62,875 bases of DNA, taken from Hufsiella arboris. GTDB taxonomy: Bacteria > Bacteroidota > Bacteroidia > Sphingobacteriales > Sphingobacteriaceae. The position numbers and the translations under genes are program-made. Of the stretch, positions 14,102 to 51,242 are shown one piece after another. The stretch lies in assembly GCF_009834875.1 (NCBI RefSeq), contig NZ_WVHT01000015.1, forward strand, positions 1 to 62,875. Direction: 5' to 3'. Within the stretch, counting starts at the first letter, position 1; each line of letters begins with the position of its first letter. Below the pieces are notes generated by a model. It was not told where the DNA came from. It searched no databases and worked only from the letters and a program-made list of their open reading frames with translations.

Positions 14102-14123
14102 GTTCCATTTTGTAAAGTGAAAC
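14102..14123 (+). promoter_or_regulatory. 22-bp palindrome, copy a (DUF1254 A1)
   Basis: Reads GTTCCA-N10-TGAAAC with a TTTGTAAA core, ending 104 bases before the A1 start codon. The motif and the bases just after it (TGATTAGA) are shared with copy b, so a and b were probably duplicated with their genes. Confidence 0.6.
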
Positions 14124-14227
14124 TGATTAGACTGTCTTTTAGAGACTGTATCTGCCAGCTTCCCCTTATTTTCATTTACCGAATTGTGATCCTCATATCA
14201 CAGGCATTAAATCGAAATAAAAGTTCT

Positions 14228-15709
14228 ATGAAAAAGATTAATTCTCGTTTGTTGTTCGCTCTTCTAATTGCTGGAATATGGCTATCTGCCTGCAATCAAA
14301 ACAAAACAAACACCGGAAACAACGCTGATTCGACCGGTAACACAAACGATTCATCGGCTACTGCTTTTAAACCAGCCAGCATCAAAGAACAACTAATTTA
14401 CCAGCGTGCCTTGCAGGCCGTTATCTGGGGCATGCCCGCGGTAAACTATGACCTGATGCTGCAGGAAATGCTTACAAAAACTTCCGCCAAACAAAACGAG
14501 ATCGTGTACTGGTCGCGCCCTGCCGACTGGCATAATCAAACGCTTACGCCCAATCCTGATGCGATCTATTTCATGGTATTCTTTAATACGAAGGATGCCG
14601 GGCCAGTTGTCATTGAGGTTCCTCCGGCAGAAGGCGGTTCTTCTTTTGCTGCTAATATTGACAACATATTTCAGATGCCGCTGGAAGATGCAGGGCCTTA
14701 TGGTGCCGATAAAGGCGCAGGCGGAAAATACCTGATTCTGCCTCCCGGTTACAAGCAAAAACCACCAGTGGGTTACATCGTACTGCCTGCCGATACCTAC
14801 GAAGGTTATGGACTGCTTCGTTCCAACCTCCCCAGCCACAGTGATGCAGATATTGCCAAATCGGTGACCTACGGAAAAAGACTTAAAGTTTATCCATTGT
14901 CAAAAGCAGGAAACCCGGGCGAAACCAGGTTCACTGACGCAAAGGATGTGATCTACGATTCCACTATTCCATTTGATGCAAAATTTTTCCGTTCGCTTGA
15001 CCGGATTGTACAAAGCCAGCCCTGGCTTACCCGCGACAAAGCGATGATCAATGTGCTTAAAACGATCGGAATAGAAAAAGGCAAATCATTCAATCCTGAT
15101 GCAGGAACAACTGAAATTTTAAATGCAGCTGCCAAAGGGGCGCATGATTATATCGAAGCGTTGTACGATGCTGGCTTTCCGCGGCTTAATGCTGATGCGC
15201 ATTGGGCGGTTCCCGCCATGCCGGAATTGGTAAAAGCAGGGTCTTCCGGTTATGCTGAAACCGATATCTACCCGGTTGATGCCCGCAGCCTCACTTATTC
15301 CATTGGTTACGTTGGGATCAAGCGTTTAGGCACGGCGCAGATATATCTGATTTCAGGCAAGGACAAAGATAACAACGACCTAAGCGGCGCTGAAACCTAT
15401 CGGCTTCATGTGCCGGCGAATGTGCCAACAAAGCAGTACTGGTCTGCAACGGTGTACGACCGTGTAACACATGCCCTGATTAAAAATCTATCACGTGCAA
15501 GCTGTGCCTCAAACGATAAAGCGGTTCAACAAAATGGCGATGGATCGGTCGATGTATACTTTGGTCCAAAGTCGCCGGCAGGCAAAGAACCCAACTGGGT
15601 TCCAACCGATTCAAAGGGTCGATTCGAAGTGCTGTTTCGACTTTATGGTCCGGAGAAAGCATTGTTCGAGAGAACATGGAAACTTGGGGATATTGAGAAA
15701 GTAAAATAA
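14228..15709 (+). CDS. DUF1254/DUF1214 lipoprotein A1
   Basis: About 493 residues. The ATG at 14228 gives a lipoprotein signal peptide with lipobox LSAC, whereas the frame extends further upstream only through non-signal residues. A DUF1254 domain follows (AVIWGMPAVNYDLMLQEM, TLTPNPDAIYFMVFFNTKDA, GPVVIEVPPA), then a C-terminal DUF1214 domain (YRLHVPANVPTKQYWSATVY, DGSVDVYFGPKSPAGKEPNW, RLYGPEKALFERTWKLG). Both domains are of unknown biochemical role. The protein is probably anchored in the periplasm. It is closely related to A2 at 21.2 kb and leads a run with a barrel protein, a sulfatase and B1. Regulation is probably through the palindrome at 14102. Confidence 0.88.
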   Translation: MKKINSRLLFALLIAGIWLSACNQNKTNTGNNADSTGNTNDSSATAFKPASIKEQLIYQRALQAVIWGMPAVNYDLMLQEMLTKTSAKQNEIVYWSRPADWHNQTLTPNPDAIYFMVFFNTKDAGPVVIEVPPAEGGSSFAANIDNIFQMPLEDAGPYGADKGAGGKYLILPPGYKQKPPVGYIVLPADTYEGYGLLRSNLPSHSDADIAKSVTYGKRLKVYPLSKAGNPGETRFTDAKDVIYDSTIPFDAKFFRSLDRIVQSQPWLTRDKAMINVLKTIGIEKGKSFNPDAGTTEILNAAAKGAHDYIEALYDAGFPRLNADAHWAVPAMPELVKAGSSGYAETDIYPVDARSLTYSIGYVGIKRLGTAQIYLISGKDKDNNDLSGAETYRLHVPANVPTKQYWSATVYDRVTHALIKNLSRASCASNDKAVQQNGDGSVDVYFGPKSPAGKEPNWVPTDSKGRFEVLFRLYGPEKALFERTWKLGDIEKVK

Positions 15710-15755
15710 TACGGTAAATCTCCAGGAGGAAGAGATTACAAAATAATCATTGGTT

Positions 15756-16742
15756 ATGAAAGATAAAAGAACAACTCGAATGCCTTATGCCCTTATTTGG
15801 TTGATTGCTTTCACCCTTCTCAATGTAACGGCAAAGGCGCAGTTAAAAGGCACGCACCTCTTAGGCGATATGGGCCTGCAATCCGGCAGTCAGCCGCCAC
15901 CATCCTTTACACCGGCCGTGGCATTGTATAATTATCATACGTCCAAATTTGTGACGGCAAACAAAGATGAGATCAAAGCCCCGGATATCAACATGTTCCT
16001 GCTGGGTTTGGGAGGAAGTTGGGTGACCAACGCTAAGATACTCGGCGGCAATTACGGTGGTTCCATTTTAATAGGATTTGCCTCCAGTAAAATCGAGGGA
16101 AACCTCATCGCTACCAAATCGTCCTTAGCCTTTACCGACTTATACGTACAGCCCCTGCAATTAGGCTGGAAAACAAAACAGGCTGATTTTACATTTGGAT
16201 ACGCCTTATACCTGCCAACGGGCAAATATGAATTGGGTGGCGATGATAACGCCGGCTTAGGAATATTGACGAACGAGTTTTCCGCAGGTACCACCGTTTA
16301 TTTCGATCCCAAAAAGGAATGGAATATTTCGACGCTGCTTTCTTATGGTATAAACAGCAAGAAAAAGAATACGCAGGACAATGAAATTACAGTCGGCAAC
16401 CCGCTAACCATCGAGGGCGGCCTGGGTAAAACCTGGTATAAACCGGTAAAGAGAACGCCTCTGCCCATGATCATCAACGCGGGTGCGGTTTACTACATGC
16501 AGTTTAAAACCACGGCTGATGAAATGAGAATCCCGGTGATCAGCAACAGTACATTTGACCTGGCGAATAAAGATCATATCTACGCGCTCGGCGCAGAAGC
16601 CAATGTTTTTATTCCCAAAATTAAATCAAGTATCGGCCTTCGCTGGGTGGGTGAACTTGGGGCGGAGAACCGCACACAGGGAAATTCTTTTTTTATCACG
16701 ATAGCGCCTTTCATCACATTTTTTGAACCAAAAAAGAAGTAG
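15756..16742 (+). CDS. Outer-membrane protein of the MetA-pathway (SphA-like) family
   Basis: About 328 residues. The ATG at 15756 precedes a signal peptide ending near TAKA|Q. The body is a predicted barrel with strand patterns typical of proteins annotated as phenol MetA degradation or transporter (QLGWKTKQADFTFGYALYLP followed by TGKYELGGDDNAGLG, then WNISTLLSYGINSKKKN), ending FITIAPFITFFEPKKK. Members of this family are thought to be channels for hydrophobic compounds; the substrate is unknown here. It starts 46 bases after A1 and is probably co-transcribed with it. A related but distant barrel at 41.8 kb also has the regulatory palindrome upstream. Confidence 0.75.
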   Translation: MKDKRTTRMPYALIWLIAFTLLNVTAKAQLKGTHLLGDMGLQSGSQPPPSFTPAVALYNYHTSKFVTANKDEIKAPDINMFLLGLGGSWVTNAKILGGNYGGSILIGFASSKIEGNLIATKSSLAFTDLYVQPLQLGWKTKQADFTFGYALYLPTGKYELGGDDNAGLGILTNEFSAGTTVYFDPKKEWNISTLLSYGINSKKKNTQDNEITVGNPLTIEGGLGKTWYKPVKRTPLPMIINAGAVYYMQFKTTADEMRIPVISNSTFDLANKDHIYALGAEANVFIPKIKSSIGLRWVGELGAENRTQGNSFFITIAPFITFFEPKKK

Positions 16743-16749
16743 GTGAGGC

Positions 16750-16782
16750 AGGTGTCAGACACTTTAAAAATGTCAGACACCT
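16750..16782. repeat. REP-like palindrome with GTCAGAC
   Basis: AGGTGTCAGACA (16750-16761) and TGTCAGACACCT (16771-16782) form arms with one central mismatch, around CTTTAAAAA. It lies in the short gap between the barrel gene and the sulfatase gene. It shares the GTCAGAC core and the same central mismatch with the palindromes at 20738 and 24213. Confidence 0.65.
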
Positions 16783-16816
16783 AAAAGGCCAGGAACAAAC
16801 ACGTCTAAAAAGCATC

Positions 16817-18220
16817 ATGAAAAAACTAGTGATCTTATTACTTATTATTCCCTTCGCTATTACCCTTTACGCTCAGCAAAAGCCGAACATTGTTTTTATC
16901 CTGATGGATAACCTGGGCTATGGTGAGGTTGGATGCTATGGCGGCGGTGAGATAAGAGGCGCCGCTACACCCCGCATCGACAAGTTTGCAACCGAGGGTA
17001 CCCGCCTAACAAATTTCAATGTCGAGTCGCAATGCACGCCAAGCCGTTCCGCAATTTTGACGGGGCGCTTCGCCATTCGTTCGGGGACACATTCCGTACC
17101 GTTGCCAGGTTTACCGGATGGGCTTACCCAATGGGAAGTAACTATTGCCGAATTGCTTTCGGGGGTTGGTTATAAAACGGCAAGTTTTGGTAAATGGCAT
17201 CTCGGCAGTGCGCAGAACAGGCTGCCTAATGAGCAGGGCTTTGATGAATGGTACGGTATTCCGCGAACCACAGATGAGTCCATGTTTCCTTCTCAACCGG
17301 GAGCAAAGGCCGCAGGTATTCCTTTTATGCATACGATGGAAGGCCGGAAAGGCGAAAAAAGCAAGGATGTAGCTCTGTATGACCTCGACCAGCGCCGGCT
17401 GATTGACGCAGAAGTTACCAGGCGTGCTATTGATTTTATGCAGCGAAGTGTACAGGCAAAAAAAACCTTTTATGCTTACGTTCCTTTTACGTTGGTTCAT
17501 TTTCCTGCGCTGCCTAACCCGAAGTTCGCTGGCAAAACCGGCAATGGTGATTTCCCCGACGCGCTTGCCGAAATGGATAGCCATGTTGGCGAAATACTTG
17601 ATGCAGTTGATAAACTGGGTATTCGTGACAATACGATCTTTGTGTTTACCAGCGATAACGGGCCCGATCCTACATTTCCTTCGCAGGGATCTTCCGGTCC
17701 GTGGCGCGGTTATTATTTCACCCACATGGAAGGTTCGCTGCGAACCCCTTTCATTATTCGATGGCCGGGTAAAATTCCTGCCGGACGCGTCAGTAACGAG
17801 ATCGTACATGAAGTGGATACCTATACCACCTTCGCAAAAATTGCCGGCGCCAAAATACCCGGCGACAGGCCGGTTGACGGAGTAGATCAGTCTGATTTTT
17901 TCTTTGGTAAGGCCAAATCAAACCGTGAAGGTTTTCCTGTTTTTGTAGCGGATCGCCTGGAAGCCGTGAAATGGAAAAACTTTAAAATGGCCTTTTATGA
18001 AGCGGAGCGTGAATGGTGGAGCCCGCCAACTAAGCTTGGAGTACCCCAGATATTTGATCTTTATACCGATCCCAAAGAGGAGTATCCTGCTACTTTAACA
18101 CCAAATGCATGGGTAGGTGGATTTATGATGAAGATCATAGGCGATTTTGAAAAAAGCCTGGTGAAATATCCCCTGATTAAACCGGGAACGCCGGATCCAT
18201 ATCTGCCGCCGAATAAATGA
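16817..18220 (+). CDS. Exported arylsulfatase (sulfatase family, type I)
   Basis: 467 residues with a signal peptide ending near residue 19. It hydrolyses a sulfate ester; the substrate is unknown. The active-site signature CTPSR begins at Cys73, the residue converted to formylglycine, with Arg77. Metal ligands are visible in ILMDNLGYGE (Asp31, Asn32) and FTSDNGPDPT, and GKWHLG is near residue 126. The length is normal. Conversion of Cys73 needs a maturation enzyme (anSME or FGE) that is not in this window. It lies between A1/barrel and B1 on the same strand with short gaps, so it is probably part of that operon. Sulfatases next to DUF1254 genes are suggestive of a shared substrate route, but that is inference. 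Confidence 0.92.
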   Translation: MKKLVILLLIIPFAITLYAQQKPNIVFILMDNLGYGEVGCYGGGEIRGAATPRIDKFATEGTRLTNFNVESQCTPSRSAILTGRFAIRSGTHSVPLPGLPDGLTQWEVTIAELLSGVGYKTASFGKWHLGSAQNRLPNEQGFDEWYGIPRTTDESMFPSQPGAKAAGIPFMHTMEGRKGEKSKDVALYDLDQRRLIDAEVTRRAIDFMQRSVQAKKTFYAYVPFTLVHFPALPNPKFAGKTGNGDFPDALAEMDSHVGEILDAVDKLGIRDNTIFVFTSDNGPDPTFPSQGSSGPWRGYYFTHMEGSLRTPFIIRWPGKIPAGRVSNEIVHEVDTYTTFAKIAGAKIPGDRPVDGVDQSDFFFGKAKSNREGFPVFVADRLEAVKWKNFKMAFYEAEREWWSPPTKLGVPQIFDLYTDPKEEYPATLTPNAWVGGFMMKIIGDFEKSLVKYPLIKPGTPDPYLPPNK

Positions 18221-18258
18221 TGAGCGTTCTGAAACCAGTGTCAACATAAAAATAAATC

Positions 18259-19782
18259 ATGAAAAAAATCAACATCTCATCACTGACTCTCTCTATAGTT
18301 CCGATAACCATTGGGATCGTTCTGCTGTTGGCAGCCTGCAAGCAAAACCGAGATAAGTCGGCCGTCAAAACCGATTCAACCACAACGGTAACAGAAGTAA
18401 CAGATACCAGTTCGGCGAAGCAAGCTGTTCCAGGACCTGATACAACCGTGAAGATCACCGAATCTTATGCCCGGCAGGTGGCCAAAGATGCTTTGTTCTG
18501 GGCCTGGCCAATGGAAAATATTTATAACCGACGCCTGGCCTTTAAGCAGGCGCCACATGCTGGTTTAATGAATGGCGTATTGCCTTTTGCGCCACTCAAC
18601 ACCTTATCCATGTTGCACGATTATATACAGCCGGAACAGCGCTGGGTGGCTTGCCCAAACCAAGATGTAGTGTACGGCGCAGCCATTGCGGCATTAGATG
18701 AAACGCCGGTAGTGGTACAGGTGCCTGATTTCGGCAACCGATTTTGGGTGTACCAGGTAGTTGATCTGAGAACGGATGCATTCGCTCAACTGGGTAAGAT
18801 GTATGGAACCAAGCCTGGTTTTTATTTACTCGTAGGCCCCAATTGGAAAGGTGATGTACCAAAAGGCATTACCAAAGTATTCCGCAGTAAAACCGGTACT
18901 GCTTTCGTTGTGCCACGCGTGTTTCAGGATGATACTCCTGAAGATAAAGCAGCGATACAAAAAGTGATCAGCTCTATTAATGTGTATGCCCTGGACAAGT
19001 TTGATGGTAAAACGAAAACACAAGACTGGAGTAAGCTTCCAACCCTGGGTTCGCCTACAAAAGATAACAGTACAGCTGAAACCAAATGGGTTTTTCCTGA
19101 CAAATTTTTTGATTTGTTACCCATCGTTCTGAAAGATGCACCGCCTCTGCCAGGCGAAGAAGCACGTTATGCCCAGGTAAACGCGTTGCTTGCTGCCGCC
19201 CGTAAAAATCCTGCCTTAAAAAAAGCAATGATCGATGAAGCCATTAAAGCCGAAAAAGAACTGGTAGATCCGCTGCTGCAGTTCCGCAATTGGGGAATAC
19301 AACTCGCCAACCACTGGTCTACAGGTAATAACACCGCCGCGTTTGGAACGGATTATTTTACACGTACCGCGATGGCGAAATCAAACATATTGGTGAATGT
19401 CGGTGTCGAAACGAAATATTTTTACCAGGATCTCGATTCAGCTGGTGCTAGATTGAACGGCGGCAACCGGTATGCGGTTACTTTCGCAAAAGGGCAAACA
19501 CCACCTGTAAATGGCTTTTGGTCGCTTACTTTATACGACGAGTTTCATTTTTTTGTCCCCAATACGATTAAACGCTATTCGCTCGGCACTAAAAACAAAA
19601 CATTAATATATAATTCCGACGGCTCATTGACGATTTATGTTCAGGCAAGTGCGCCGGCAAATCGGGATAACTGGCTTCCGGCTCCTAAAGGGAACTTTTC
19701 ATTGTATTTAAGAGCGTATTGGCCGAAAGATGTTGTGGTGAATGGCAGCTGGACGCCGCCAGCTGTGGTGAAGGTGAAATAG
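18259..19782 (+). CDS. DUF1254/DUF1214 lipoprotein B1
   Basis: 507 residues. A lipoprotein signal peptide ends in lipobox LAAC, followed by a threonine-rich linker (KTDSTTTVTEVTDTSSAK). DUF1254 features (FWAWPMENIYNRR, CPNQDVVYGAAIAALDETPV, VQVPDFGNRFWVYQVVDLRT) and a DUF1214 C-terminus (GFWSLTLYDEFHFFVPN, YSLGTKNKTLIYNSDGSLTI) follow. It is the closest relative in the window of B2 at 22.7 kb; the last 30 coding bases before the final codon are nearly the same in both genes. It follows the sulfatase after 38 bases and is probably the last gene of the A1 operon. Biochemical role unknown. Confidence 0.88.
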   Translation: MKKINISSLTLSIVPITIGIVLLLAACKQNRDKSAVKTDSTTTVTEVTDTSSAKQAVPGPDTTVKITESYARQVAKDALFWAWPMENIYNRRLAFKQAPHAGLMNGVLPFAPLNTLSMLHDYIQPEQRWVACPNQDVVYGAAIAALDETPVVVQVPDFGNRFWVYQVVDLRTDAFAQLGKMYGTKPGFYLLVGPNWKGDVPKGITKVFRSKTGTAFVVPRVFQDDTPEDKAAIQKVISSINVYALDKFDGKTKTQDWSKLPTLGSPTKDNSTAETKWVFPDKFFDLLPIVLKDAPPLPGEEARYAQVNALLAAARKNPALKKAMIDEAIKAEKELVDPLLQFRNWGIQLANHWSTGNNTAAFGTDYFTRTAMAKSNILVNVGVETKYFYQDLDSAGARLNGGNRYAVTFAKGQTPPVNGFWSLTLYDEFHFFVPNTIKRYSLGTKNKTLIYNSDGSLTIYVQASAPANRDNWLPAPKGNFSLYLRAYWPKDVVVNGSWTPPAVVKVK

Positions 19783-20053: not shown

Positions 20054-20690
20054 ATGTTAAAGTATTCAGTCGGCCTGGATGTTTCCCTAAAGGAGATTGA
20101 TTGCTTCTAACCCGGAAGTGGCAGAAAAAGTGCGAAAAATATGTACGATTAAGGGCGTCGGCTTGCTTACGGCGGCAACCATACTTGCCGAAACCAATGG
20201 GTTTGCCCTGTTCGGCAATGCCCGGCAGCTTGTTAGTTTTGCAGGACTGGATGTAGAAGAAAACCAATCTGGAAAGCACATAGGCAACACCCGTATCACC
20301 AAGAAAGGGAACAGCCATATCCGGAGAATACTGTACATGCCGGCATTTGTGACAGTGACTCACCAGGTAAAACCATTCATGGACTTATATCAGCGTACCC
20401 TGTCCAAACATGGCATCAAAATGAAAAGCTATGTGGCCGTGCAGAAAAAGCTATTGGTTGTTATCTATGCTTTATGGAAAAAGAACGAAGCCTTTGATTC
20501 AGGATGCCGGCTCCATGAGCATACCGAAGAACAGGAATCGGCGCTTCCTCTCGGGTCGGCGGCCATAGCCGCCGAAGAAATCTTTCCAGCTGAAAAACAA
20601 GTAGTGCCAGTAAAATTACCGGCACTACACAAGGTAAGCATGCCGAGTGAACGATCACCGTATGCTTCCTCTCGGGTAGTACAAAGTTAA
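20054..20690 (+). pseudogene. IS110-family transposase with internal deletion
   Basis: The N-terminus (MLKYSVGLDVSLKEID from ATG 20054) is the start of the DEDD domain of IS110 transposases. It runs into a stop within 20 codons. In a different frame from about 20096 the C-terminal transposase_20 domain appears (EKVRKICTIKGVGLLTAATI, FAGLDVEENQSGKHIGNTRI, SHIRRILYMPAF). About 400-550 bases of the middle, including most of the catalytic DEDD domain, are missing, and the junction is out of frame. The gene is dead. It lies between the two DUF1254 loci. The last 80 residues are not domain-like. Confidence 0.85.
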
Positions 20691-21054: not shown

Positions 21055-21076
21055 GTTCCATCTTGTAAAATGAAAC
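21055..21076 (+). promoter_or_regulatory. 22-bp palindrome, copy b (DUF1254 A2)
   Basis: Reads GTTCCA-N10-TGAAAC with CTTGTAAAA in the centre, ending 112 bases before the A2 start codon. It differs from copy f by a single base when both are read in the same direction. Confidence 0.6.
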
Positions 21077-21188
21077 TGATTAGAAGGTTAATTAGAAAGC
21101 GGTGTGCACGCTTCCTCTTAACTTCAATAATTATTAGGAGGAGCTGTGGAGCCTAACAGGTTTCAGTCACCCAAAACGTAACCTCGAT

Positions 21189-42634: not shown

Positions 42635-43358
42635 AAACGCTCCACTCCAACTGTGTTCAAACGTTAATATTTTTGTTCGTGCAGATAAGTTAATATAACT
42701 TAGCAATTAATCATTTCAAAGCTGGGAGAGGCTTCGCCTGACGCTCTTCCTGTCCGCCAGTGATTTTCCATCCGGAAGCCACGTAGTATTGAATGTAACC
42801 GTTACGTGCATTTATTATATCCCATTCGCTGTCATTGGCTCTAATTAGTTACTTCGCTGCAAAACAGGTAGTTGATACTGGAATAACGAGTATTAATACG
42901 TTGCCGAGTTTTTTCGCTTCTTATAATTTTGCTTGTATGGAAACAAACCATTTATAAAATTAGGTCCAACACAGGAAAAAGCTTAATCGATATTATTTTA
43001 GTAAATACACTTTCTGATTTGCGCTCTCCTATCTGAATGTGAACAAATATGACTGGGAATATAGATCGAAAAACTTCTTACAGCTTTAATATACCAAATC
43101 ACCCGACGACAGTTTTATCTGAAAATGCCGGGGGATCGCTGAGCATCATGGTAACTAAATTGAAAGATTCTTTTTAACAGTATTTCGCGCCGGTTTGTAT
43201 GAGGTTTCCGGAGCATGTTTATATCTTTTGAATTATAGGTTTTCATGGGCAGTTCAGCGAAATTTTTCCGCCATTGATTTGGTATCAGAATTCTTTCGAA
43301 GCTCGGATATGCGGGTGGTCAGCATTGATGAATAAAGTCAACTTTTTAAATTATTACT
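42635..43358. other. Intergenic region, little recognised
   Basis: No convincing gene in 724 bases. A 42-codon frame from ATG 43049 to TAA 43177 is the only notable open stretch. A GC-rich string near 42721-42775 (GGCTTCGCCTGACGCTC) may be part of a short palindromic repeat. Confidence 0.45.
43049..43177 (+). CDS. Possible 42-residue protein
   Basis: ATG at 43049 opens a frame encoding SYSFNIPNHPTTVLSENAGG among 42 residues, stop TAA at 43175. There is no signal peptide, no recognised family and no clear ribosome binding site. An open frame of this length is expected by chance fairly often, so I give it low weight. Confidence 0.2.
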   Translation: MTGNIDRKTSYSFNIPNHPTTVLSENAGGSLSIMVTKLKDSF

Positions 43359-44495
43359 ATGGCATCGAGCGATATAATGCAACAAAACTGCCCGGAATCA
43401 CGCACTTTCCGAAAGGATGGTATTCCAGATTATTCTTCCTGTGAAATTCTTGTCGCGCTTGCCAAAAAGTGCGACATTATGATCTTTGGTTACGATATAT
43501 CCTTGCAGTGTTTCACTTACCACAATCCCGCTTTTACGTCGACGGTCCGGGCAGAAAACAGCAAGTTAGATCTTAAAGCTATTCTTAGCAGAGTTTACCC
43601 GGATGACCGCGATAAATTTACAATGGCATACCGGCGACTTCTGAAAACTGGCCAGCATTCACTGGAGTTTCGGATGGACAAAAACGGGCAGGGTGATAGA
43701 TGGTTACGCCTAAACCTGCACTTTATCGATGAGAAAAAGAATGTCATAGCAGGTTATGCAGAAGATATCACGCATATTAAAGCTTATGCTGCCGATCTTC
43801 AAGCAATTTCAGAGAGGAAGAACTCAGTTCTGAACATCCTGGCACACGATCTGACAGGGCCTCTAGGCTCTATCCAGAACTATGCTTCCTTAATGGCCAG
43901 GGAGATTGACTCGACCGGCAGCGAGTCCCTCAAAGAATTTGCAGGTGCGATCTGCCGTATCAGTAAAGATAGCGTCGGACTGGTCAGAGATCTTATTGAA
44001 GAAGAATTTATATCATCATCCGCAAACCTGTTAAAAAAGCGGGTCAATATTGTTGAAAGTATACGCCAGGTGACGGCACGTTATCAAAGCTCGCAAGTCA
44101 GATTAAAACAGCAAATGATATTTAACTGCTGCGAGGACCATATATTCGTAGATATCGACGAGACAAAACTTCTGCATGCAATCAACAATTTATTATCCAA
44201 TGCGTTAAAATTTACTCCGAAAGATGGGACAGTGAAAGTGACAGTTTGTAAACAGGCAGATCATGTAATGATCCGTGTTTCAGATACCGGAATTGGGATA
44301 CCTGAAAAATTTCACGGCAACCTATTCAGCAAATTCAGTGAAGCAGGCAGACCGGGTTTAAATGGCGAACAATCTATAGGGCTGGGAATGTCGATCATTA
44401 AAACGATCGTTGATTGGCACAAAGGCAGGATCCTGGTCCGCAGTAAAGAAAATAAGGGGACCACAATCAGTATTCTCCTGCCTTATTCCGATTGA
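43359..44495 (+). CDS. PAS-domain sensor histidine kinase
   Basis: 378 residues, no membrane helix. A PAS/PAC sensor domain spans about 40-145 (MIFGYDISLQCFTYHNPAFT, RWLRLNLHFIDEKKNVIAGY, AEDITHIK). The HisKA H-box is LNILAHDLTGPLGSIQNYAS with His near 167. The HATPase domain shows the N-box LLHAINNLLSNALKFTPKDG, G1 VSDTGIGIPEKFH, and G2 SIGLGMSIIKTIVDWHKGRI. All catalytic motifs seem intact. A NarL-type regulator gene follows 167 bases later; partnership is possible, though HisKA kinases more often partner OmpR-type regulators. Confidence 0.92.
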   Translation: MASSDIMQQNCPESRTFRKDGIPDYSSCEILVALAKKCDIMIFGYDISLQCFTYHNPAFTSTVRAENSKLDLKAILSRVYPDDRDKFTMAYRRLLKTGQHSLEFRMDKNGQGDRWLRLNLHFIDEKKNVIAGYAEDITHIKAYAADLQAISERKNSVLNILAHDLTGPLGSIQNYASLMAREIDSTGSESLKEFAGAICRISKDSVGLVRDLIEEEFISSSANLLKKRVNIVESIRQVTARYQSSQVRLKQQMIFNCCEDHIFVDIDETKLLHAINNLLSNALKFTPKDGTVKVTVCKQADHVMIRVSDTGIGIPEKFHGNLFSKFSEAGRPGLNGEQSIGLGMSIIKTIVDWHKGRILVRSKENKGTTISILLPYSD

Positions 44496-44662
44496 TTGCG
44501 GCGGTTCAGGGAGCATGTATATGACGGAAGCGTCGAAGCAATTCGATGAAAGATAGATAGGGCTGTTTTTTATCAACCCGGTTTATTACAAGCATGTAGC
44601 GCGCCCCTGTTTATATGCAAACTTTTTGCGAAGCTGCTTGTCGTAAAAAATATAAGTAGCTT

Positions 44663-45316
44663 ATGATCAGGATAGTTTTAGTTGAAGACCACAGTGTGGT
44701 TCGCTCGGGCCTCAGTTTCCTGCTGAAAGGTGAAAAAGATTTTAGGGTAACTGGAGAAGCAAGTAATGGAATGGAAGCTCTCCGGCTTCTTGAAACATCC
44801 GTTGAAGCGGATGTTCTGCTTACTGATATAAATATGCCTTTTATGAACGGGCTTGAGTTGACAAGGAAGGTCAGGGAAAAATATCCGACGATTAAAACCC
44901 TGATACTGTCAATGCTTGAACACGAAAAGTACCTGATTGAAGCCTTCGATTCAGGAGCATGCGGTTACGCATTGAAAAATATCGATGCACAGGAGCTTGT
45001 TTGCGGACTAAGAATGGTGTCCCAGGATCGTAGATTCATTTGTGCCGAATTAGCATCAACTTTATTCGATAAGGTCACCCGCTTTTATGAGAAAGAATCA
45101 GAATCCATAAGAGCAGTATCAGCGGATTTAAGCCCCCGGGAAATGGAAGTTTTAGGGCTTATCGCCGACGGTTTTACGAACCAGGAAATCGCTGACAAGT
45201 TGTTTACAAGCAAACGAACGGTTGAAGGTCATCGCTTAAGCCTGATCGATAAAACCGAAACCAGGAATACTGCCTCGCTTATACAATACGCCTTCCGCGC
45301 AGGATTATTAAAATAG
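44663..45316 (+). CDS. NarL/FixJ-type response regulator
   Basis: 217 residues. Receiver domain 1-120: acidic pair in VLVEDHSVVRSG, phosphorylated Asp in DVLLTDINMPFMNGLEL, conserved Thr/Ser and Lys in TLILSML and GYALKNIDAQEL. C-terminal LuxR-type helix-turn-helix: LSPREMEVLGLIADGFTNQE, IADKLFTSKRTVEGHRLSLI. It probably acts as a transcription activator. Partners could be the PAS kinase just upstream or, on family grounds, the HisKA_3 hybrid kinase at 33.8-39.6 kb. The gene seems to be transcribed alone or with the upstream kinase. Confidence 0.93.
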   Translation: MIRIVLVEDHSVVRSGLSFLLKGEKDFRVTGEASNGMEALRLLETSVEADVLLTDINMPFMNGLELTRKVREKYPTIKTLILSMLEHEKYLIEAFDSGACGYALKNIDAQELVCGLRMVSQDRRFICAELASTLFDKVTRFYEKESESIRAVSADLSPREMEVLGLIADGFTNQEIADKLFTSKRTVEGHRLSLIDKTETRNTASLIQYAFRAGLLK

Positions 45317-45395
45317 CTTGCTCTGCAAACACATGTTCTACTTTATTGCCGAAATGTCTTCTGCGTGCTATTTCGCGTATAAATTCAGAAACCCG

Positions 45396-45417
45396 GTTTC
45401 AAATTATAATGTGCAAC
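45396..45417 (+). promoter_or_regulatory. 22-bp palindrome, copy d (BamA-like gene)
   Basis: Reads GTTTCA-N10-TGCAAC with centre ATTATAAT, the most divergent copy, ending 67 bases before the start codon at 45485. Confidence 0.5.
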
Positions 45418-45484
45418 CCTTGTATTAATTCGAAAGAAGCAGATGAAGCTTTAATAGGCTAATTTTAGGCATTATCCGAAACGC

Positions 45485-46711
45485 TTGAAAAATAAATACA
45501 GGATATTATTAATTGTAGCCTTACTTTGTGCGGCATCAGCTAAAGCCCAGGACCCGCCATCGTCGCAGGCAGCAAAAGATAGCCTTTCGCAGCAAATGGA
45601 CGCGATCGATGTGCTGAAGAAGATATTTCCGCCCAAAAAAACTGACACGGTAAAAAAGGCTTCGGCACTAGCCATACTGCCCGCGATCGGTTATAATCCC
45701 AGTACTGGATTCCTGCTTGGTATTAATTTTCTCAAATCGTTTCATACCGATCCTTCCGCTAAGCTTTCCGTCGCCCAGCTCGATGGATCGTACACATCAA
45801 AAAACCTGATTATAGTACGGTTCCGGACGAATATTTTCACCAAGGACAACAAATGGAACTTTCAGGGTAACTGGCAGTATCTCAGAAATTATGTTAACGA
45901 TTATGGTATAGGAGGCGATGCACGCCGCGATCCGCCCGTTAACTACCCCACCCGTTTTAATTATTTCCGTTTGATGGAAAAAGCTTACCGGAATCTGGGT
46001 AATAACTTTTATGCGGGTGGCGGCATTAGTTTCGACCTGCGTAATCATATCAACGCCGAACCAGCCGACAGCACACTCTATTCACCAAACAATGCATATA
46101 GTTTTGAAAAAGGATTTAATTCTGAGCGGTATTTTGTGAACGGGCTAATCCTGAATTTCCAATATAACACGCGCGAACATCCGAACCGCTCATTCGGCGG
46201 AATATATACAGACCTGGTATTTCGTTATAACACAAAGCTGTTAGGAAGTTCAAAGGAGTCAGGACAATTATATACGGAGCTGAGAAAATATATCAGCCTG
46301 TCGAAGACAAACCCCGAACATGTGCTTGCTTTCTGGTATTGGGGAAGTTATATTCTCTGGGGAGAAATGCCTTACCTTGAGCTGCCGTATACTGAATACG
46401 ATACATACAACCGAAGCGGACGTGGTTATACACTGGGTCGTTTCCGGGGGCCGAGTTTCGCAGATGCCGAAGTGGAGTATCGCTTTCCGATCAGTAAGCG
46501 GACTAAATTTTTAAGCGGCGTTTTATTCAGCAATTTTCAAACGGTATCCGACGGGAATAATAACCAGTTCTTAAAGTATATTGAACCGGCCGCCGGCGCT
46601 GGATTACGGGTGCTGTTTAATAAGAAATCACGTACAAACATTTGCCTGGACTACGCACGGGGTAAATACGGTTCCTCAGGTTTTTTCTTTTCACTGAATG
46701 AAGCCTTTTAA
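45485..46711 (+). CDS. BamA/TamA-like outer-membrane protein
   Basis: 408 residues. The start is a TTG, chosen because it directly precedes a normal signal peptide (MKNKYRILLIVALLCAASAKA|Q) and no ATG upstream is in frame. The mature protein has a short soluble part and a barrel with the surface-antigen D15 layout: LPAIGYNPSTGFLLGINFLK, LNFQYNTREHPNRSFGGIYT, FWYWGSYILWGEMPYLELPY, GRFRGPSFADAEVEYRFPIS, ending YGSSGFFFSLNEAF. Without POTRA domains it is not the essential BamA; short members of this family are probably passive channels or lipase-linked barrels. The 22-bp palindrome lies upstream. Confidence 0.82.
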   Translation: MKNKYRILLIVALLCAASAKAQDPPSSQAAKDSLSQQMDAIDVLKKIFPPKKTDTVKKASALAILPAIGYNPSTGFLLGINFLKSFHTDPSAKLSVAQLDGSYTSKNLIIVRFRTNIFTKDNKWNFQGNWQYLRNYVNDYGIGGDARRDPPVNYPTRFNYFRLMEKAYRNLGNNFYAGGGISFDLRNHINAEPADSTLYSPNNAYSFEKGFNSERYFVNGLILNFQYNTREHPNRSFGGIYTDLVFRYNTKLLGSSKESGQLYTELRKYISLSKTNPEHVLAFWYWGSYILWGEMPYLELPYTEYDTYNRSGRGYTLGRFRGPSFADAEVEYRFPISKRTKFLSGVLFSNFQTVSDGNNNQFLKYIEPAAGAGLRVLFNKKSRTNICLDYARGKYGSSGFFFSLNEAF

Positions 46712-46885
46712 ATCTTAAGAACTACGATCAAATTATATACAGCATTTAGCTCCCGATGCTGGTTTGCTGATGTATCCGGAAATGTTTGTAGAAGATACAT
46801 TCTCTCACTCGAAGGTTGTCCGGTTCCTGAATTTAGGCAAGCGGTTTAAATAACGATACAAACCAATTTAGATCGAAGATCTTAC

Positions 46886-47602
46886 TTAACTCCGTTCGAG
46901 CAAATATCTCCAGACAACCGCGCTTAAAACTGAACCAATAACCGGAGCAACGATAAAGAGCCAAACCTGACCAAGAGCATCTCCTCCGACTAAAACGGCA
47001 GGCCCGATGCTACGTGCAGGGTTTACCGAAACACCCGTAACAGGTATACCTACAATGTGGATTAAAACTAAACTCAAGCCGATTGCAAGTCCGGCAAAGC
47101 CACCGTGAATATTTTTTGTTGAAGTTGAACCGAAAATAACCAGTAAAAAAATAAAAGTAAATACAACTTCTGCTACAAAGCCAGCCATCAGGCTGTACTT
47201 CCTGGGTGAGAACATATCATAACCGTTTTGCCCCAGGCCGTTTTCTACAACTGAATACCCGGGCCGGCCAGAAGCGATCAATAACAATACAGTAGCCCCT
47301 GCAATGGCGCCTAAGATTTGGGCGATAATGTAATAAGCCGCATCGCTGGCTTTCATACGCCCAGCTATAACCATTCCTATTGATATCGCAGGATTAATGT
47401 GGCATCCTGAAATGTAGCCGATAGCATAAGCCATCGCTATAACTGAAAGCCCGAATGCAAATGAGATTCCGAGCAGTCCTACGCCGTCAACATTTGCGTT
47501 TCCTGTCGTCGCGGAAATTACTGCGCTCCCGCAACCCATTAAAACTAAGACTGCCGTTCCGAGAAACTCTACGCAAAATTTGGATAATTTACTTGTTTCC
47601 AT
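46886..47602 (-). CDS. aqpZ: Aquaporin Z-type water channel
   Basis: 238 residues with six membrane helices and the two NPA half-helices: SGCHINPAISIGM and GVSVNPARSIGPA. The selectivity-filter residues fit a water channel and not a glycerol facilitator: His in LIHIVGIPVTG and Arg after the second NPA. The insertion GYDMFSPRKYS in the loop before helix 4 is common in AqpZ. The protein lies in the inner membrane and lets water cross in response to osmotic change. On the minus strand with the barrel gene behind it at 55 bases upstream; whether the two share a transcript is uncertain. Confidence 0.95.
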   Translation of the reverse strand: METSKLSKFCVEFLGTAVLVLMGCGSAVISATTGNANVDGVGLLGISFAFGLSVIAMAYAIGYISGCHINPAISIGMVIAGRMKASDAAYYIIAQILGAIAGATVLLLIASGRPGYSVVENGLGQNGYDMFSPRKYSLMAGFVAEVVFTFIFLLVIFGSTSTKNIHGGFAGLAIGLSLVLIHIVGIPVTGVSVNPARSIGPAVLVGGDALGQVWLFIVAPVIGSVLSAVVWRYLLERS

Positions 47603-47657
47603 TCCATTTTAGATTATAGTTAAACTGAAAGATGTTGTTAGATTACTGAATTCGGCA

Positions 47658-48260
47658 TTACTCTGCTTCACCCTTTGTTTTGCCAAACTTTTTGGCAATG
47701 CCGAGCCCAAGGCCCCAGGTATCGTATGCGTTCCATCTGAAGTCATAGCTTAAGGTTCCGAAAACTTCCCAGCCTTTTGGTAGTTCGCCGTCGTATTCAA
47801 TACCTGCCCTGTTGAGTGTTAAGTTTTCTTCTTTGGCGAATTCCTCACCGATGCCCAGCAAAAAACTGAAGTGTTTTCCGGGTTTGAATATGCACATCAA
47901 TGCGGGTGCTATCGGATAGCTTCTTTCTATCTCCTCTTTCTCGCCGTTCTCAGAAGTACTTTCTACTTTAAATTTTTCAATGGTGAGATCTGTGTGCAAC
48001 CCGACTGCCCATCTGGGACTGAACCCAAATGTGTAATCGATCCCCCAGGATGGTAGTGTAAGCGATTTCTTTTTTCCATCCGCATCCCGGCCCTCAAAAA
48101 CATGTGTGTGATTAATCGATACAGCAAGCTCATGATAAGAATGGAAACCTTTTTCAGTCTCATTTTCTTCCTGAGCGAAGCAATTGTTCCGAACTGACAA
48201 AAGCAAGATTCCAGCTCCCAGGATCAGCCATGTAAAAACTATGTTTATCGATTTGTGCAA
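47658..48260 (-). CDS. Outer-membrane beta-barrel-like protein
   Basis: 200 residues. The N-terminus (NIVFTWLILGAGILLLSVRN, then NCFAQEEN) is a signal peptide. The mature protein has alternating strands (YHELAVSINHTHVFEGRDAD, PSWGIDYTFGFSPRWAVGLH, FSFLLGIGEEFAKEENLTL, WEVFGTLSYDFRWNAYDTWG, LGLGIAKKFGKTKGEAE). It fits an eight- to ten-strand barrel. The family is unknown to me. The palindrome copy e lies 127 bases upstream of its start. It is followed by aqpZ on the same strand. Confidence 0.7.
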   Translation of the reverse strand: MHKSINIVFTWLILGAGILLLSVRNNCFAQEENETEKGFHSYHELAVSINHTHVFEGRDADGKKKSLTLPSWGIDYTFGFSPRWAVGLHTDLTIEKFKVESTSENGEKEEIERSYPIAPALMCIFKPGKHFSFLLGIGEEFAKEENLTLNRAGIEYDGELPKGWEVFGTLSYDFRWNAYDTWGLGLGIAKKFGKTKGEAE

Positions 48261-48387
48261 GCTATATTGAGTTTGGTCAATATTCGGTTCGCTATCCTGC
48301 TAATTTCTACTCTGCATTCTATCTCGGTTACCAAGACTAAATTATTTAAAAAACGGGTAAGCAATTGTTCCGGTAGCCGTACATCAG

Positions 48388-48409
48388 GTTCCATTTTGCA
48401 ATATGAAAC
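48388..48409 (-). promoter_or_regulatory. 22-bp palindrome, copy e (barrel gene 48260)
   Basis: On the plus strand it reads GTTCCA-N10-TGAAAC with centre TTTGCAAT; it is 127 bases before the start of the minus-strand barrel gene. Confidence 0.55.
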
Positions 48410-48511
48410 CTATTTGAATTTACGGCCTCAAGGGTGAAATACTTGCACACTGCGCGAAGTCGAAACATCGGTGATGGTCTTTAATTCTGTCCAGGCTGGG
48501 AATATTTTGTT

Positions 48512-49768
48512 TTAATATATCCACTGCAGCCGCACAATCAAGCTATTAGTTATGCCTTTTATATTGTCCCGGTCGAGGTTGCTATAACCGTACCCGAAAG
48601 CCATTCTCCAATATTGCGTGGCCCACCAATTAAGGCCGCCGTAAAATTTTACAAGTTTCCCGCCTTTAATGTCTTTTGAATCAAGGTCTACGTTGGATAT
48701 TCGTGCAACCACCTCCCAGGCACCATGCGTTGCTTCCGGCTTAACGCGGCGGGCATAGGCGGCTTTTTTGTCGTACGGCCGCTGCTCTCCGCTAAGCACC
48801 CAGCTTCCTGTAAAATAATATCCTTTGAATGTTTCACTCCCCTGTGGCGTGCTGGCCGTGCTGATTACATATTCGCCCAGCAAGGAGAAATTTTTGATAT
48901 TCCACAATTCTTCAAAACCTATGCTCCAGGAATGATCCGCGGCAAAATTTTTCGTATCCACATAATTGGAAGTTACATTGGATTCATTTTTTCCCTTATA
49001 CCTCAGGATATCATTCTGGCCCTCGGCATAGCGTGTGCTCACTGCCAGGTGAAGAAATGTTTTAGTTGCCTCATCATAATAGGGCAAGCCGGTAAGCCTG
49101 GCTGTGAATGAATTAGCGCCACCTTTCAACGTAGTATCTGTGGTAATGAAATTATTGAAATAGCCTGCCGCCATTGTCATCCGGTCGTTCAGTAAGGGTT
49201 TGTTCCAGCGTACACCTGTATTTCGCGACACAAAAAAGGGGTTCAGTATACGTTCTGCCTGCGGCAGGTTCGCTGCGTCCCCAACCATTTCATAGACGAA
49301 GGTTTCTTTTAGTTTTCCTACCGAGAAACTCCCGATTTTTCCTGCAGGGATGGTGAACATCAGGTCCGTGAAACCGAAAGCTTTCTGGTCGTCTGTACGA
49401 TCAAGTCCCTTATACTCGATACCAATAAGGTACGACCAGCGATTTTTAAAAAAGATCTTCCCCCGCATCATAAACCGGGCACTGCGAAGATCAAACTGAT
49501 CCTTTTGCTTACCCACCTGCCTGATACTGGCACTATCCTGGAAAAAAGCTGAATAATCAATGATTGGCGCCGCCCCCAACTGCATTGAAAAAAGCTTGGT
49601 GCTGAAATGTGTCCAGCTCATTTTTTTTCGTACATCCGGGATAAGATATTTTTTTCCGGTGTCCGCCAGTACCTGCGTTTGGGATGAGTCGACTAAATCC
49701 GTATTCTGCGCAAAGACAGATGTGAGCTGAAATGCAAATAGTATGAGCAGGAAGATTTTTATTTTCAT
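48512..49768 (-). CDS. Phosphate-selective porin O/P family protein
   Basis: About 418 residues from the ATG at 49768 (MKIKIFLLILFAFQLTSVFA|Q), which places the signal peptide first; the longer frame adds six residues. The mature protein is a 16-strand type porin with typical OprO/OprP features: DLRSARFMMRGKIFFKNRWS, then YLIGIEYKGLDRTDD, FSVGKLKETFVYEMVGDA, LNPFFVSRNTGVRWNKPLLN, TMAAGYFNNFI, and the ending INWWATQYWRMAFGYGYSNL-like strand with final LIVRLQWIY. It would pass phosphate or other anions across the outer membrane; specificity cannot be judged. No palindrome copy was seen before it. Confidence 0.8.
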   Translation of the reverse strand: MKIKIFLLILFAFQLTSVFAQNTDLVDSSQTQVLADTGKKYLIPDVRKKMSWTHFSTKLFSMQLGAAPIIDYSAFFQDSASIRQVGKQKDQFDLRSARFMMRGKIFFKNRWSYLIGIEYKGLDRTDDQKAFGFTDLMFTIPAGKIGSFSVGKLKETFVYEMVGDAANLPQAERILNPFFVSRNTGVRWNKPLLNDRMTMAAGYFNNFITTDTTLKGGANSFTARLTGLPYYDEATKTFLHLAVSTRYAEGQNDILRYKGKNESNVTSNYVDTKNFAADHSWSIGFEELWNIKNFSLLGEYVISTASTPQGSETFKGYYFTGSWVLSGEQRPYDKKAAYARRVKPEATHGAWEVVARISNVDLDSKDIKGGKLVKFYGGLNWWATQYWRMAFGYGYSNLDRDNIKGITNSLIVRLQWIY

Positions 49769-49937
49769 AAAACCTGTTTTAACCAAATAACCAGGTATGG
49801 AACCTGCGAGTTAAATAAGCTATGCAGTACTAATTGCAAAATCCTGGGTTTAGTGAAAGAAGACGATATTAGATCCTAAATGAACAGAGTTCGAATCGTT
49901 GAAGATTGATAAACATATCGCTATACGCACTGATTTT

Positions 49938-50888
49938 CTACCATTTCTTTTTCCCAAAGGCATAAGATGCAGAAAGAGAAGGTCCGTTATACCCCCATTT
50001 TAAATAACCATGTAATTTTTCTTTATCTACGTCTACATTGAAGTTCAAGCCTGTGTACCCTAAAGCGACGTCAAAATTCTTTAGTACCTCGTACATTACA
50101 ACAACGTTATAGCTAAAAATTTGCCCGTCTACATCATTCACTTTTAACGATAAATAGCTGATCTCGCCATTGAACGCCAGGCGGTTTGTAAACGCGTAGC
50201 CGCCCCAAATACCTACATCAGGTAGTGGGGCCGTAAAACCAAAATCGTCGCTATATCCAAGACTGGCTGTGGCGCCTGTTGCTGAAATACCCACGTCACT
50301 TTTTACGATATGCGCACCCAACATCAGTCCCAGTTCATATTTCGGATGGCTTAATAATGCATAGCCATATGAAAAGCGAAAAATATTTGTTTTAAAAAAC
50401 GAATTCACGTCGGCATTTACGGGATAGGTGTGATCGCCGAACTCAACATCTTTTTTTAGCGTATAGTTTGAGTTGCGGTCTACGTGAAAGTAGCTCAGGT
50501 CAAATCTCGACCTGCGCGAGGCTCTCCATTGAAAATTTCCAAGAAACGTTGCGGTGGATTTGCTGAAGCCTAAATTGTCTTCAAAATTTATCGTGGTCCC
50601 GAAGGTATTTTGCTGGTTACCGACTTCGATTTCGGTATTATTTACCGGGATGAACAAACCAACCGACGCCCGGAAACGCTGTACCCACCATGGCGGGGTT
50701 GCGTTGGTTCGCGATTTATTTTCACTTGAATTTATTGAATAGGGTGGCAGATAACTGGAATTTCCAGATTGATCATTCGCTTGATAAGCATTCAATGATT
50801 CGAAAGACTGTTGTGCTTTTAACCCTTTAGAAAGAACCACCAGTACACTAGCTATTAGTATGCCGGGCAGAAGAATTTTTCTTTTCAT
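49938..50888 (-). CDS. Outer-membrane beta-barrel protein
   Basis: About 316 residues from the ATG at 50888 (MKRKILLPGILIASVLVVLS ... LKAQQ), which gives a signal peptide; the upstream extension in the longer frame is not signal-like. Strand patterns include FRASVGLFIPVNNTEIEVG, SRRSRFDLSYFHVDRNSNYT, FRFSYGYALLSHPKYELGLM, LPDVGIWGGYAFTNRLAFNG, YNVVVMYEVLKNFDVALGYT and the end LSASYAFGKKKW. I cannot name the family or substrate. Palindrome copy f is 112 bases upstream of this start. Confidence 0.72.
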   Translation of the reverse strand: MKRKILLPGILIASVLVVLSKGLKAQQSFESLNAYQANDQSGNSSYLPPYSINSSENKSRTNATPPWWVQRFRASVGLFIPVNNTEIEVGNQQNTFGTTINFEDNLGFSKSTATFLGNFQWRASRRSRFDLSYFHVDRNSNYTLKKDVEFGDHTYPVNADVNSFFKTNIFRFSYGYALLSHPKYELGLMLGAHIVKSDVGISATGATASLGYSDDFGFTAPLPDVGIWGGYAFTNRLAFNGEISYLSLKVNDVDGQIFSYNVVVMYEVLKNFDVALGYTGLNFNVDVDKEKLHGYLKWGYNGPSLSASYAFGKKKW

Positions 50889-51242
50889 ATTAACCTGGTA
50901 AGATTTGACTAATAAGTTACCGTTCACTATTAAACTAATAATGAATAATACAAATGTCTGCCGTTATTCTTTATAGAATTAGTATGTAAGTGCCAGATGT
51001 GTTTCATTTTACAAGATGCAACATAGTTGAAGCCGAAATGCTCCCGGCTTTAAAAAAGACGCGGTAACTTTATTTTGATTGAGAAAGTCATTAAAGACAC
51101 CGAATAACTGGATACCTGCCTAATCCTCTAATGCCGGGGATATTCCCTGATATAGCTGTAGAACGATTCAAACCATGAATGTTGTGTAATCTGGGATTAC
51201 GCTTCAATAGCCACCTGTAATGGCCGCCTATAAATTGAGCAT
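50889..51242. other. Divergent region between barrel gene and adhesin gene
   Basis: No gene seen. It carries palindrome f at 51001, which by distance (112 bases) fits the minus-strand barrel gene better than the adhesin (220 bases). Confidence 0.5.
51001..51022 (-). promoter_or_regulatory. 22-bp palindrome, copy f (barrel gene 50888)
   Basis: On the plus strand it reads GTTTCA-N10-TGCAAC with centre TTTTACAAG; read toward the barrel gene it is GTTGCA-N10-TGAAAC, one base different from copy b. Confidence 0.6.

Follow-up and report, generated by a model that had tools for sequence, protein, structure and literature searches.

A recurrent 22-bp palindrome at a near-fixed distance from promoters of envelope-related genes in Hufsiella arboris, and a candidate membrane-bound AraC-type regulator

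The stretch of DNA analysed here (the window; 62,875 nucleotides [nt] of Hufsiella arboris contig NZ_WVHT01000015.1, called contig C7 of the genome below) contains a 22-bp palindrome that recurs in front of genes. A preliminary description of the window had placed six copies at 14102, 21055, 41699, 45396, 48388, and 51001, and all six were found there, each with 0 mismatches to GTTNCA-N10-TGNAAC; they are here called palindromes a to f. Toward the gene, each is followed by a sequence resembling the -7 promoter element of Bacteroidota, which was sought as TAnnTTT(A/G); at the last position A was allowed beside G, which is laxer than the published consensus TAnnTTTG.

Palindrome a (14102 to 14123, plus strand; GTTCCATTTTGTAAAGTGAAAC) is followed after 43 nt by the -7-like sequence TATTTTCA (14167 to 14174; 5 of 6 positions). 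The gene that it faces (14117 to 15709, plus strand) is a DUF1254/DUF1214 gene by Pfam, appears by eye to encode a lipoprotein-like product, and is the first of a probable operon extending to 19782. Its open reading frame (ORF) opens with a GTG codon overlapping the palindrome, and a later ATG at 14228 is the likelier start. The rest of the probable operon (15750 to 19782, plus strand) encodes a Phenol_MetA_deg family protein, a sulfatase, and a second DUF1254/DUF1214 protein, and each of these genes has a homologue in a site-led operon (one preceded by the palindrome) of Mucilaginibacter and/or Flavobacterium. Palindrome b (21055 to 21076, plus strand; GTTCCATCTTGTAAAATGAAAC) carries the -7-like sequence TAACTTCA (21119 to 21126; 42 nt, 5 of 6 positions), and the two plus-strand genes behind it (21189 to 22643 and 22667 to 24175) were assigned to the DUF1254 cluster by sequence clustering and not by Pfam. 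The interval separating the DUF1254 operons contains, at 20097 to 20690, what appears by eye to be a remnant resembling the C-terminal part of an IS110-type transposase.

Palindromes c (41699 to 41720; GTTTCACTTTGTAAACTGGAAC) and d (45396 to 45417; GTTTCAAATTATAATGTGCAAC), both on the plus strand, share the same -7 element, TAATTTTA, at 41763 to 41770 and 45460 to 45467, respectively, on the plus strand and with a spacing of 42 nt in both cases. Behind palindrome c lies a gene for a probably exported protein without a Pfam family (41783 to 42634, plus strand), which has homologues as the first gene after a site in Mucilaginibacter X5P1 and in the third position of a site-led operon in Flavobacterium ginsenosidimutans. 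Palindrome d precedes a gene for an Omp85-superfamily protein identified by Pfam (45485 to 46711, plus strand), with site-led homologues in Mucilaginibacter agri (locus L165) and in a metagenome-assembled genome (MAG) of the Sphingobacteriaceae (locus L129). Palindrome e (48388 to 48409, minus strand; GTTTCATATTGCAAAATGGAAC), with the -7-like sequence TAATTTAG at 48344 to 48337 (43 nt, 5 of 6 positions), faces a gene for another probably exported protein without a Pfam family (47658 to 48260, minus strand), which has homologues in site-led operons of Flavobacterium and M. agri.

Palindrome f (51001 to 51022, no strand assigned; GTTTCATTTTACAAGATGCAAC) lies between two divergent genes. The preliminary description had assigned it to the minus-strand gene at 49938 to 50927, which matches no Pfam family and has a site-led homologue with 51% identity in Mucilaginibacter X5P1. 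This assignment is backed by a weaker -7-like element on the minus strand (GACATTTG, 50951 to 50958; 42 nt, 5 of 6 positions); however, the perfect -7 element (TAACTTTA, 51065 to 51072, plus strand; 42 nt) points the other way, toward a giant repeat-rich gene of 3836 codons (51243 to 62753, plus strand) with a signal-peptide-like start, which appears adhesin-like by eye and was not scanned against Pfam. Palindrome f may thus serve both directions. A Porin_O_P gene (48512 to 49786, minus strand) follows 151 nt after the gene at 49938 to 50927, and its relative in M. agri (locus L171) stands directly behind a palindrome. Four outer-membrane barrels had been proposed among the genes behind palindromes c to f. 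Pfam backs this for the Omp85 protein at 45485, whereas the proteins at 41783, 47658, and 49938 match no family at an E value of 0.001; all three satisfy a crude signal-peptide rule.

The window holds more sites than had been reported. A seventh perfect match (GTTGCACATTTGAATTTGCAAC; 32033 to 32054, no strand assigned) contradicts the earlier statement that there was no further copy. No gene-facing -7 element with at least 5 of 6 positions was found beside it, the larger gene starts lie more than 600 nt away, and we are unsure of its function. When one mismatch was allowed, the window gave 11 matches against a mean of 2.73 (maximum, 7) in shuffled sequences, and none of 100 shuffles reached 11. 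The TTGTAAA-like core noted earlier is present and is better written as TT-NN-AA. With this core, GTTNCA-NN-TT-NN-AA-NN-TGNAAC occurs perfectly at 19 places in the genome (4,801,297 bases in 56 contigs), approximately three times the site set first seen, and the reversed control pattern gave 0; in view of the window shuffles and this control, a chance palindrome was rejected. Without the core the pattern gave 26 matches versus 6 for the reversed control. In the 19 perfect sites the fourth base of the palindrome is C, G, or T and never A, giving the form GTTBCA-NN-TT-NN-AA-NN-TGVAAC. With up to two mismatches, this form occurs at 43 places (19 perfect, 3 with one mismatch, and 21 with two); as the control gave 13, most of the places with two mismatches can be regarded as noise.

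The 19 perfect sites are located on contigs C3 (1 site), C4 (2), C7 (7), C8 (4), C11 (1), and C23 (4), the last four between 507 and 535 kb of a 553-kb contig; one one-mismatch site lies elsewhere, on C56. The G+C content is 0.445 to 0.475 in the retrieved parts of C7, C8, and C11 versus 0.414 in C23 from 479 to 499 kb, which is a mild difference. The flanks of palindromes a and b share some sequence; those inspected at the other H. arboris sites look unrelated by eye, with the palindrome and the -7 element kept.

The most constrained feature of these sites is their distance to the promoter. The short motif TAATTTTA/TAACTTTA recurs 42 nt downstream of palindromes in the direction of the gene, and 18 of the 19 sites have, before an ORF, a -7-like element with at least 5 of 6 positions that starts 41 to 43 nt from the palindrome, the exception being 32033; relative to genes, the genome-wide matches are therefore not random. 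A gene start lies no more than 400 nt away in 22 directions. In 11 of these the perfect element TAnnTTT(A/G) occurs at 41 to 43 nt, and at other offsets from 15 to 89 nt it occurs on average 0.01 times per offset (maximum, 1). Elements with at least 5 of 6 positions number 1, 13, and 5 at 41, 42, and 43 nt, respectively, versus a mean of 0.51 per other offset (maximum, 3). The perfect element was also found at 41 to 43 nt in 13 of 37 directions in three Mucilaginibacter genomes and in 18 of 39 directions in two Flavobacterium genomes, counts that are partly due to the selection of these five genomes for at least one site with 42-nt spacing. In the Flavobacterium pair one offset outside this range reaches a count of 7, and about half or more of the gene-facing directions of the five genomes lack the perfect element at 41 to 43 nt.

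A matrix built from 81 sites of six genomes, those of H. arboris included, was used to scan the retrieved H. arboris contigs. Among matches that are accompanied by a -7-like element and lie no more than 400 nt from an ORF, the class for which the score gap is established, the 18 perfect sites score 26.4 to 30.8, followed by one one-mismatch site at 25.1 and then by two matches at 15.3 and 13.6. A score of at least 6 together with a perfect -7 element was obtained at 13 real places and at none in three shuffles of the same contigs. The -7 element of Flavobacterium johnsoniae begins with T at -12 and ends with G at -5, and a -33 box is much less evident in general, according to the excerpted part of the promoter study (PMC6847099). 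With the T of the element at -12, the palindrome would end at -55 and be centred at -65.5. A TTTG-like column near -33 was not seen in 66 non-redundant palindrome promoters, but in F. johnsoniae this box is weak in any case.

The genes behind the sites recur across genera. For 13 of the 18 assigned sites, or 14 if one weak match is counted, at least one gene of the probable operon that follows is homologous to a gene in a site-led operon of Mucilaginibacter, with which one Sphingobacteriaceae MAG was counted, or of Flavobacterium. The shared targets are DUF1254/DUF1214 proteins, sulfatases, a HAD-type protein, Porin_O_P, Omp85-type, and Phenol_MetA_deg proteins, DUF6515, DUF4136, a MoxR-type AAA operon, a DUF502-like protein (below the Pfam cut-off), and four families that have no Pfam name (C7:41783, C7:47658, C7:49938, and C23:507855). 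No such site-led homologue was found for the sites C8:34937 and C11:8356, both at giant genes, or for the sites C3:4785 and C23:507716. In the five other genomes, the products of 46 of 67 site-facing genes look exported by the crude signal-peptide rule, versus 220 of 615 other ORFs of the same stretches. In H. arboris itself the difference is weak (14 of 21 versus 90 of 184 in the background), and the term "envelope regulon" therefore relies mainly on the protein families and on the other genomes. The network would join several families of unknown function, namely, DUF1254/DUF1214, DUF2092, DUF4136, and DUF6515.

A scan of one genome per species for the palindrome followed by exactly N42 and TAAYTTT returned at least 114 stretches. 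Among those listed, 106 belong to Flavobacterium or other Flavobacteriaceae and 5 to Mucilaginibacter, the remaining three coming from a Sphingobacteriaceae MAG, a Cryomorphaceae MAG (close to a coding start and unsure), and Alloalcanivorax (locus L098), the last of which was taken as a chance match and left out of the consensus and the target counts. Of 115 selected promoters, 66 remain when mutual identity is kept below 70%; their consensus is GTTKCA-NN-TTATAA-NN-TGMAAC, which tends to be preceded by G and followed by C or A, the columns that belong to the search pattern being fixed by selection. Perfect palindromes number 7, 20, and 5 in Mucilaginibacter X4EP1 (G120), M. agri (G121), and X5P1 (G122) and 15, 16, and 5 in Flavobacterium ustbae (G123), F. 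ginsenosidimutans (G124), and Flavobacterium sp. 270 (G125), respectively, and the control gave 0 in each genome. Among 120 genomes searched as relatives of the window (H. arboris included), sites were present only in H. arboris (19) and in G006 (1).

Two further arrangements were seen at these loci. Paired palindromes 50 to 51 bp apart (start to start) occur in Flavobacterium at G124:C16:245585-245656 and in G123 (C8), G131 (C3), G166 (C1), G176 (C63), and G212 (C11); the pairs in G123 and G124 stand before a sulfatase-like gene. A small protein of ~80 amino acids is encoded directly after the site in 20 of the 114 listed loci (L032 to L145; e.g., L064, L083, and L100) and also behind the sulfatase gene of L068, and no homologue of it was found among the retrieved H. 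arboris contigs.

The preliminary description had named no regulator. Clustering of the proteins encoded near sites in six genomes has now yielded a candidate, a 407-amino-acid AraC-type protein encoded on contig C8 (11013 to 12236). It contains an HTH_18 domain at residues 310 to 390 (Pfam; E value 6.2e-13, 49.3 bits versus a cut-off of 33.6) and matches solved chains 3oou_A (E value 2.3e-6) and 6swi_A (E value 0.0065) by sequence. The N-terminal part of ~250 amino acids is hydrophobic, with five hydrophobic stretches within residues 2 to 247, and is probably a multi-pass membrane domain, as judged from hydropathy. The second recognition helix reads SRTT(F/C)FRAFIK in most ortholog-like rows of the alignment and differs in other rows. 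In a tree of 28 homologues, a branch with 100/100 support separates the 13 ortholog-like rows (labelled by score) from the 15 others, which include paralogs from motif-positive genomes; the tree omits six short or duplicated rows, two weaker neighbouring paralogs (G303 and G399), and G122.

Two stand-alone copies of the candidate's helix-turn-helix (HTH) domain are encoded near sites in F. ginsenosidimutans, ~1.0 kb and ~4 kb away. At locus L078 of this species, a site-led gene for a 231-amino-acid protein (1640 to 2332) is followed, after a gap of more than 200 nt, by a stand-alone HTH_18 domain (2619 to 2966) that is 41% identical to the DNA-binding domain of the candidate. The 231-amino-acid protein has no Pfam match and was set aside as a regulator. 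Likewise, NarL-, LytTR-, and Xre-type and Crp-like genes near sites were rejected as paralog-like, with no recurring orthologs in the six genomes, no genome-wide profile having been made for them.

The candidate tracks the sites in three lineages. In a search of 34 genomes at an E value of 1e-15, 19 had some match; matches of ortholog grade (E value 6e-76 or better, 40% to 43% identity) were found in five of the six other motif-positive genomes, and the best match in the 27 other relatives, each with at most one site, had an E value of 3.1e-41 and 30% identity. We then sampled 150 genomes evenly from a larger Flavobacterium group and scored the best 12 first-look candidates in each. At an ortholog cut-off of 1e-30, 29 genomes had an ortholog, with actual E values of 1.3e-57 to 1.9e-92; all 29 contain at least one site and 28 contain at least three, versus none of the 121 genomes without an ortholog, of which one has two sites and four have one (Fisher's exact test for at least three sites, P = 1.5e-29, with shared descent ignored). 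Among 149 Mucilaginibacter genomes, the 5 with an ortholog (E value 1e-40 or better) carry 7, 10, 11, 13, and 20 sites, and 140 of the 144 without one have fewer than three, six of these having one or two.

Regulator gene and site are also close to each other. In H. arboris a site begins 22 nt past the stop codon of the candidate on C8; the distance from the end of the regulator gene to a site is ~520 nt in X4EP1, ~670 nt in G303, and ~600 nt in G399, and in M. agri the start of the regulator gene lies 175 nt from a site on contig C43. In eight Flavobacterium genomes with listed places (G124, G131, G139, G166, G176, G190, G199, and G212), no more than 12 kb separates the regulator gene from a site; a ninth, G215, was listed in part.

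On the basis of the sites, their -7 spacing, their recurrence, and the co-occurrence and linkage with the C8 gene, we consider it likely that the genes behind the palindrome, most of them for exported and outer-membrane proteins, form a regulon with the palindrome as its operator, and that this operator is read as a dimer site by the membrane AraC-family activator encoded on C8. A regulon of envelope genes under a dimeric regulator had been suggested from the window alone, and the non-random sites together with the same geometry and homologous targets in other genera argue for it. In the proposed mechanism, a dimer would bind the palindrome centred at about -65.5 and activate Bacteroidota promoters of the sigma-A type, keeping to one face of the helix at a spacing of mostly 42 nt (range 41 to 43 nt), the HTH domains of the membrane-embedded regulator contacting RNA polymerase in the manner of class I activators. 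The regulator would then be a one-component switch, probably one that senses the state of the envelope or of the surroundings. A phosphate signal was considered and found no support; the main text of a study of phosphate starvation in Flavobacterium, as far as it was available, contains no sulfatase, AraC, or DUF1254 (PMC8115612).

Several systems resemble this arrangement in part. In CRP-type class I activation, a palindromic dimer site is held at a constant distance from the start, in the -60s; the position of the proposed dimer site is similar here, whereas its sequence and half-site spacing differ, and the candidate is AraC-type and membrane bound. Other families considered fit less well: the palindrome is even in length, so its symmetric pairs cannot be the T-N11-A of a LysR-type site, which had been considered for the -65 position, and CRP/FNR- and LexA-type sites do not fit in spacing or parity. 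CadC and ToxR are membrane-anchored, DNA-binding one-component regulators with an OmpR-like winged helix and a single membrane segment; they control promoters from the membrane, as is proposed for the candidate, which differs in being AraC-type and probably multi-pass. RhaS and RhaR are soluble. Like the candidate as proposed here, these Escherichia coli proteins are AraC-family activators acting on an inverted repeat, although the RhaR site consists of two half-sites of 17 bp each, separated by 17 bp (excerpted part of PMC3870299), and the whole inverted repeat described here spans 22 to 24 bp. Similar in protein type are the AraC-type regulators of Saccharophagus degradans, 16 of 31 of which are membrane bound and hypothesised to detect extracellular polysaccharides; the excerpted part of that report gives only their chromosomal proximity to cellulose degradation enzymes and no operators, whereas a site, its geometry, 19 copies, and several genera are proposed here (PMC2386152).

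A number of observations weigh against this assignment. (i) An inverted repeat of 22 to 24 bp is short for two AraC-type domains; as such domains usually need half-sites longer than 11 to 12 bp, each subunit may use mainly one of its two HTH motifs. Moreover, the motifs of AraC-family rhamnose regulators have tandem-repeat symmetry, as far as the available excerpt states (PMC3870299). (ii) The preliminary description had held that absence of the site from close relatives would speak against a regulon, and the same-genus genome G001 has 0 sites. Its best match to the candidate (E value 3.1e-41, 30% identity) is not of ortholog grade, and since both sites and regulator are missing, we take the whole switch to have been gained or lost; a DNA comparison of positions 32500 to 52400 of the window with the same-genus genome gave a single 39-nt match. 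(iii) Mucilaginibacter X5P1 (G122) has 5 sites and a best regulator match of only 2.1e-18, and its sites look genuine, three of the five having a TAnnTTTG-like element at 41 to 42 nt. Three more Mucilaginibacter genomes have at least three sites without an ortholog (G281, 7; G364, 4; and G292, 3), and conversely G184 of Flavobacterium has an ortholog and 1 site. The sites of G281 and G364 and two of the three in G292 have the form GTTCCA...TGGAAC, and those of G281 are seven near-identical palindromes of type GTTCCACCTTTAAAACTGGAAC, possibly a different repeat or regulon; given the deviating form and the near-identical copies, the sites of this form may belong to something else. (iv) In M. agri, the genome with the most sites (20), the ortholog lies in two parts at the ends of different contigs, and a stop occurs where it breaks; in X4EP1 (7 sites) and Flavobacterium sp. 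270 (5 sites) it contains an internal stop. In the latter the TTATAA core is kept in only two of the five sites, which together with the internal stop would fit site decay after loss of the switch. (v) The positive Flavobacterium genomes probably belong mostly to one clade of large genomes. (vi) Co-occurrence does not separate a protein that binds the site from a target that travels with it, and the profile was made for the membrane AraC-type candidate alone.

One alternative is that the regulon is the same and another DNA-binding protein reads the palindrome, the membrane AraC-type protein being a conserved target or upstream partner. A small palindrome fits many other regulator families, genes for a NarL-type protein (C7:44663), an AraC/DUF6597 protein (C7:40717), and, by eye, an Xre-type protein (C4:26384) and LytTR-type proteins lie near H. 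arboris sites, and G122 has sites without the ortholog. However, within ~8 kb of sites in the six genomes the membrane AraC family is the one regulator that can be followed as an ortholog, the others being scattered and paralog-like, and it tracks the sites in three lineages; we consider this alternative unlikely. Less probable still is that the palindrome is the operator of a repressor. Palindromes are common as repressor sites, and the sign of regulation was deduced from position; nevertheless, in the assigned promoters the promoter core comes after the palindrome, with a near-fixed 41 to 43 nt between palindrome and -7 element, a spacing that a repressor would not need, and the fixed spacing therefore favours an activator. 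A non-regulatory nature of the palindromes, as recombination sites or as copies of a repeated or mobile element, is highly improbable, even though the perfect sites are confined to six contigs, some of them small, palindromes a and b share flanks, a transposase-like remnant and repeat-rich genes lie nearby by eye, and G281 holds near-identical palindromes of a related form, since most copies stand before genes in the correct orientation, the other flanks that were inspected look unrelated by eye, and 66 of the 115 selected promoters stay below 70% mutual identity. Nearly the same OmpA-like C-terminal sequence was seen by eye at the start of C8 (14 to 445) and the end of C23 (552646 to 553083); repeats of this sort may interrupt an assembly, and the six contigs with sites may therefore lie next to one another.

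Returning to the membrane AraC-type activator, we propose a broader picture, to which we give even weight for and against: a family of such activators, with a compact palindrome of 22 to 24 bp at -65.5 and an envelope and sulfatase regulon, would have moved between Bacteroidota families as a kit of switch and target operons, with loss of the switch followed by decay of the sites. No description of the motif or of the regulon, and no described operator for a membrane AraC-type one-component regulator, was found in searches of an open-access library that contains few subscription papers; the main text of the Flavobacterium psychrophilum promoter map, in its available part, does not mention AraC or palindromes (PMC9723704). 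The present analysis offers a candidate member of this class together with its proposed site, promoter geometry, and list of targets. As many Flavobacterium genomes and some of Mucilaginibacter share the control, a tractable laboratory species should allow it to be tested.

Other genes of the window lie between the regulon operons. Positions 26349 to 28698 contain stress-type genes by eye (DoxX-like, manganese catalase-like, and YciE/DUF892-like), with no perfect site among them. An ORF of 1931 codons (33782 to 39577) appears by eye to encode a fusion resembling CheB, CheR, PAS, and histidine kinase domains, and it is preceded by a CheB-like gene (32684 to 33715).

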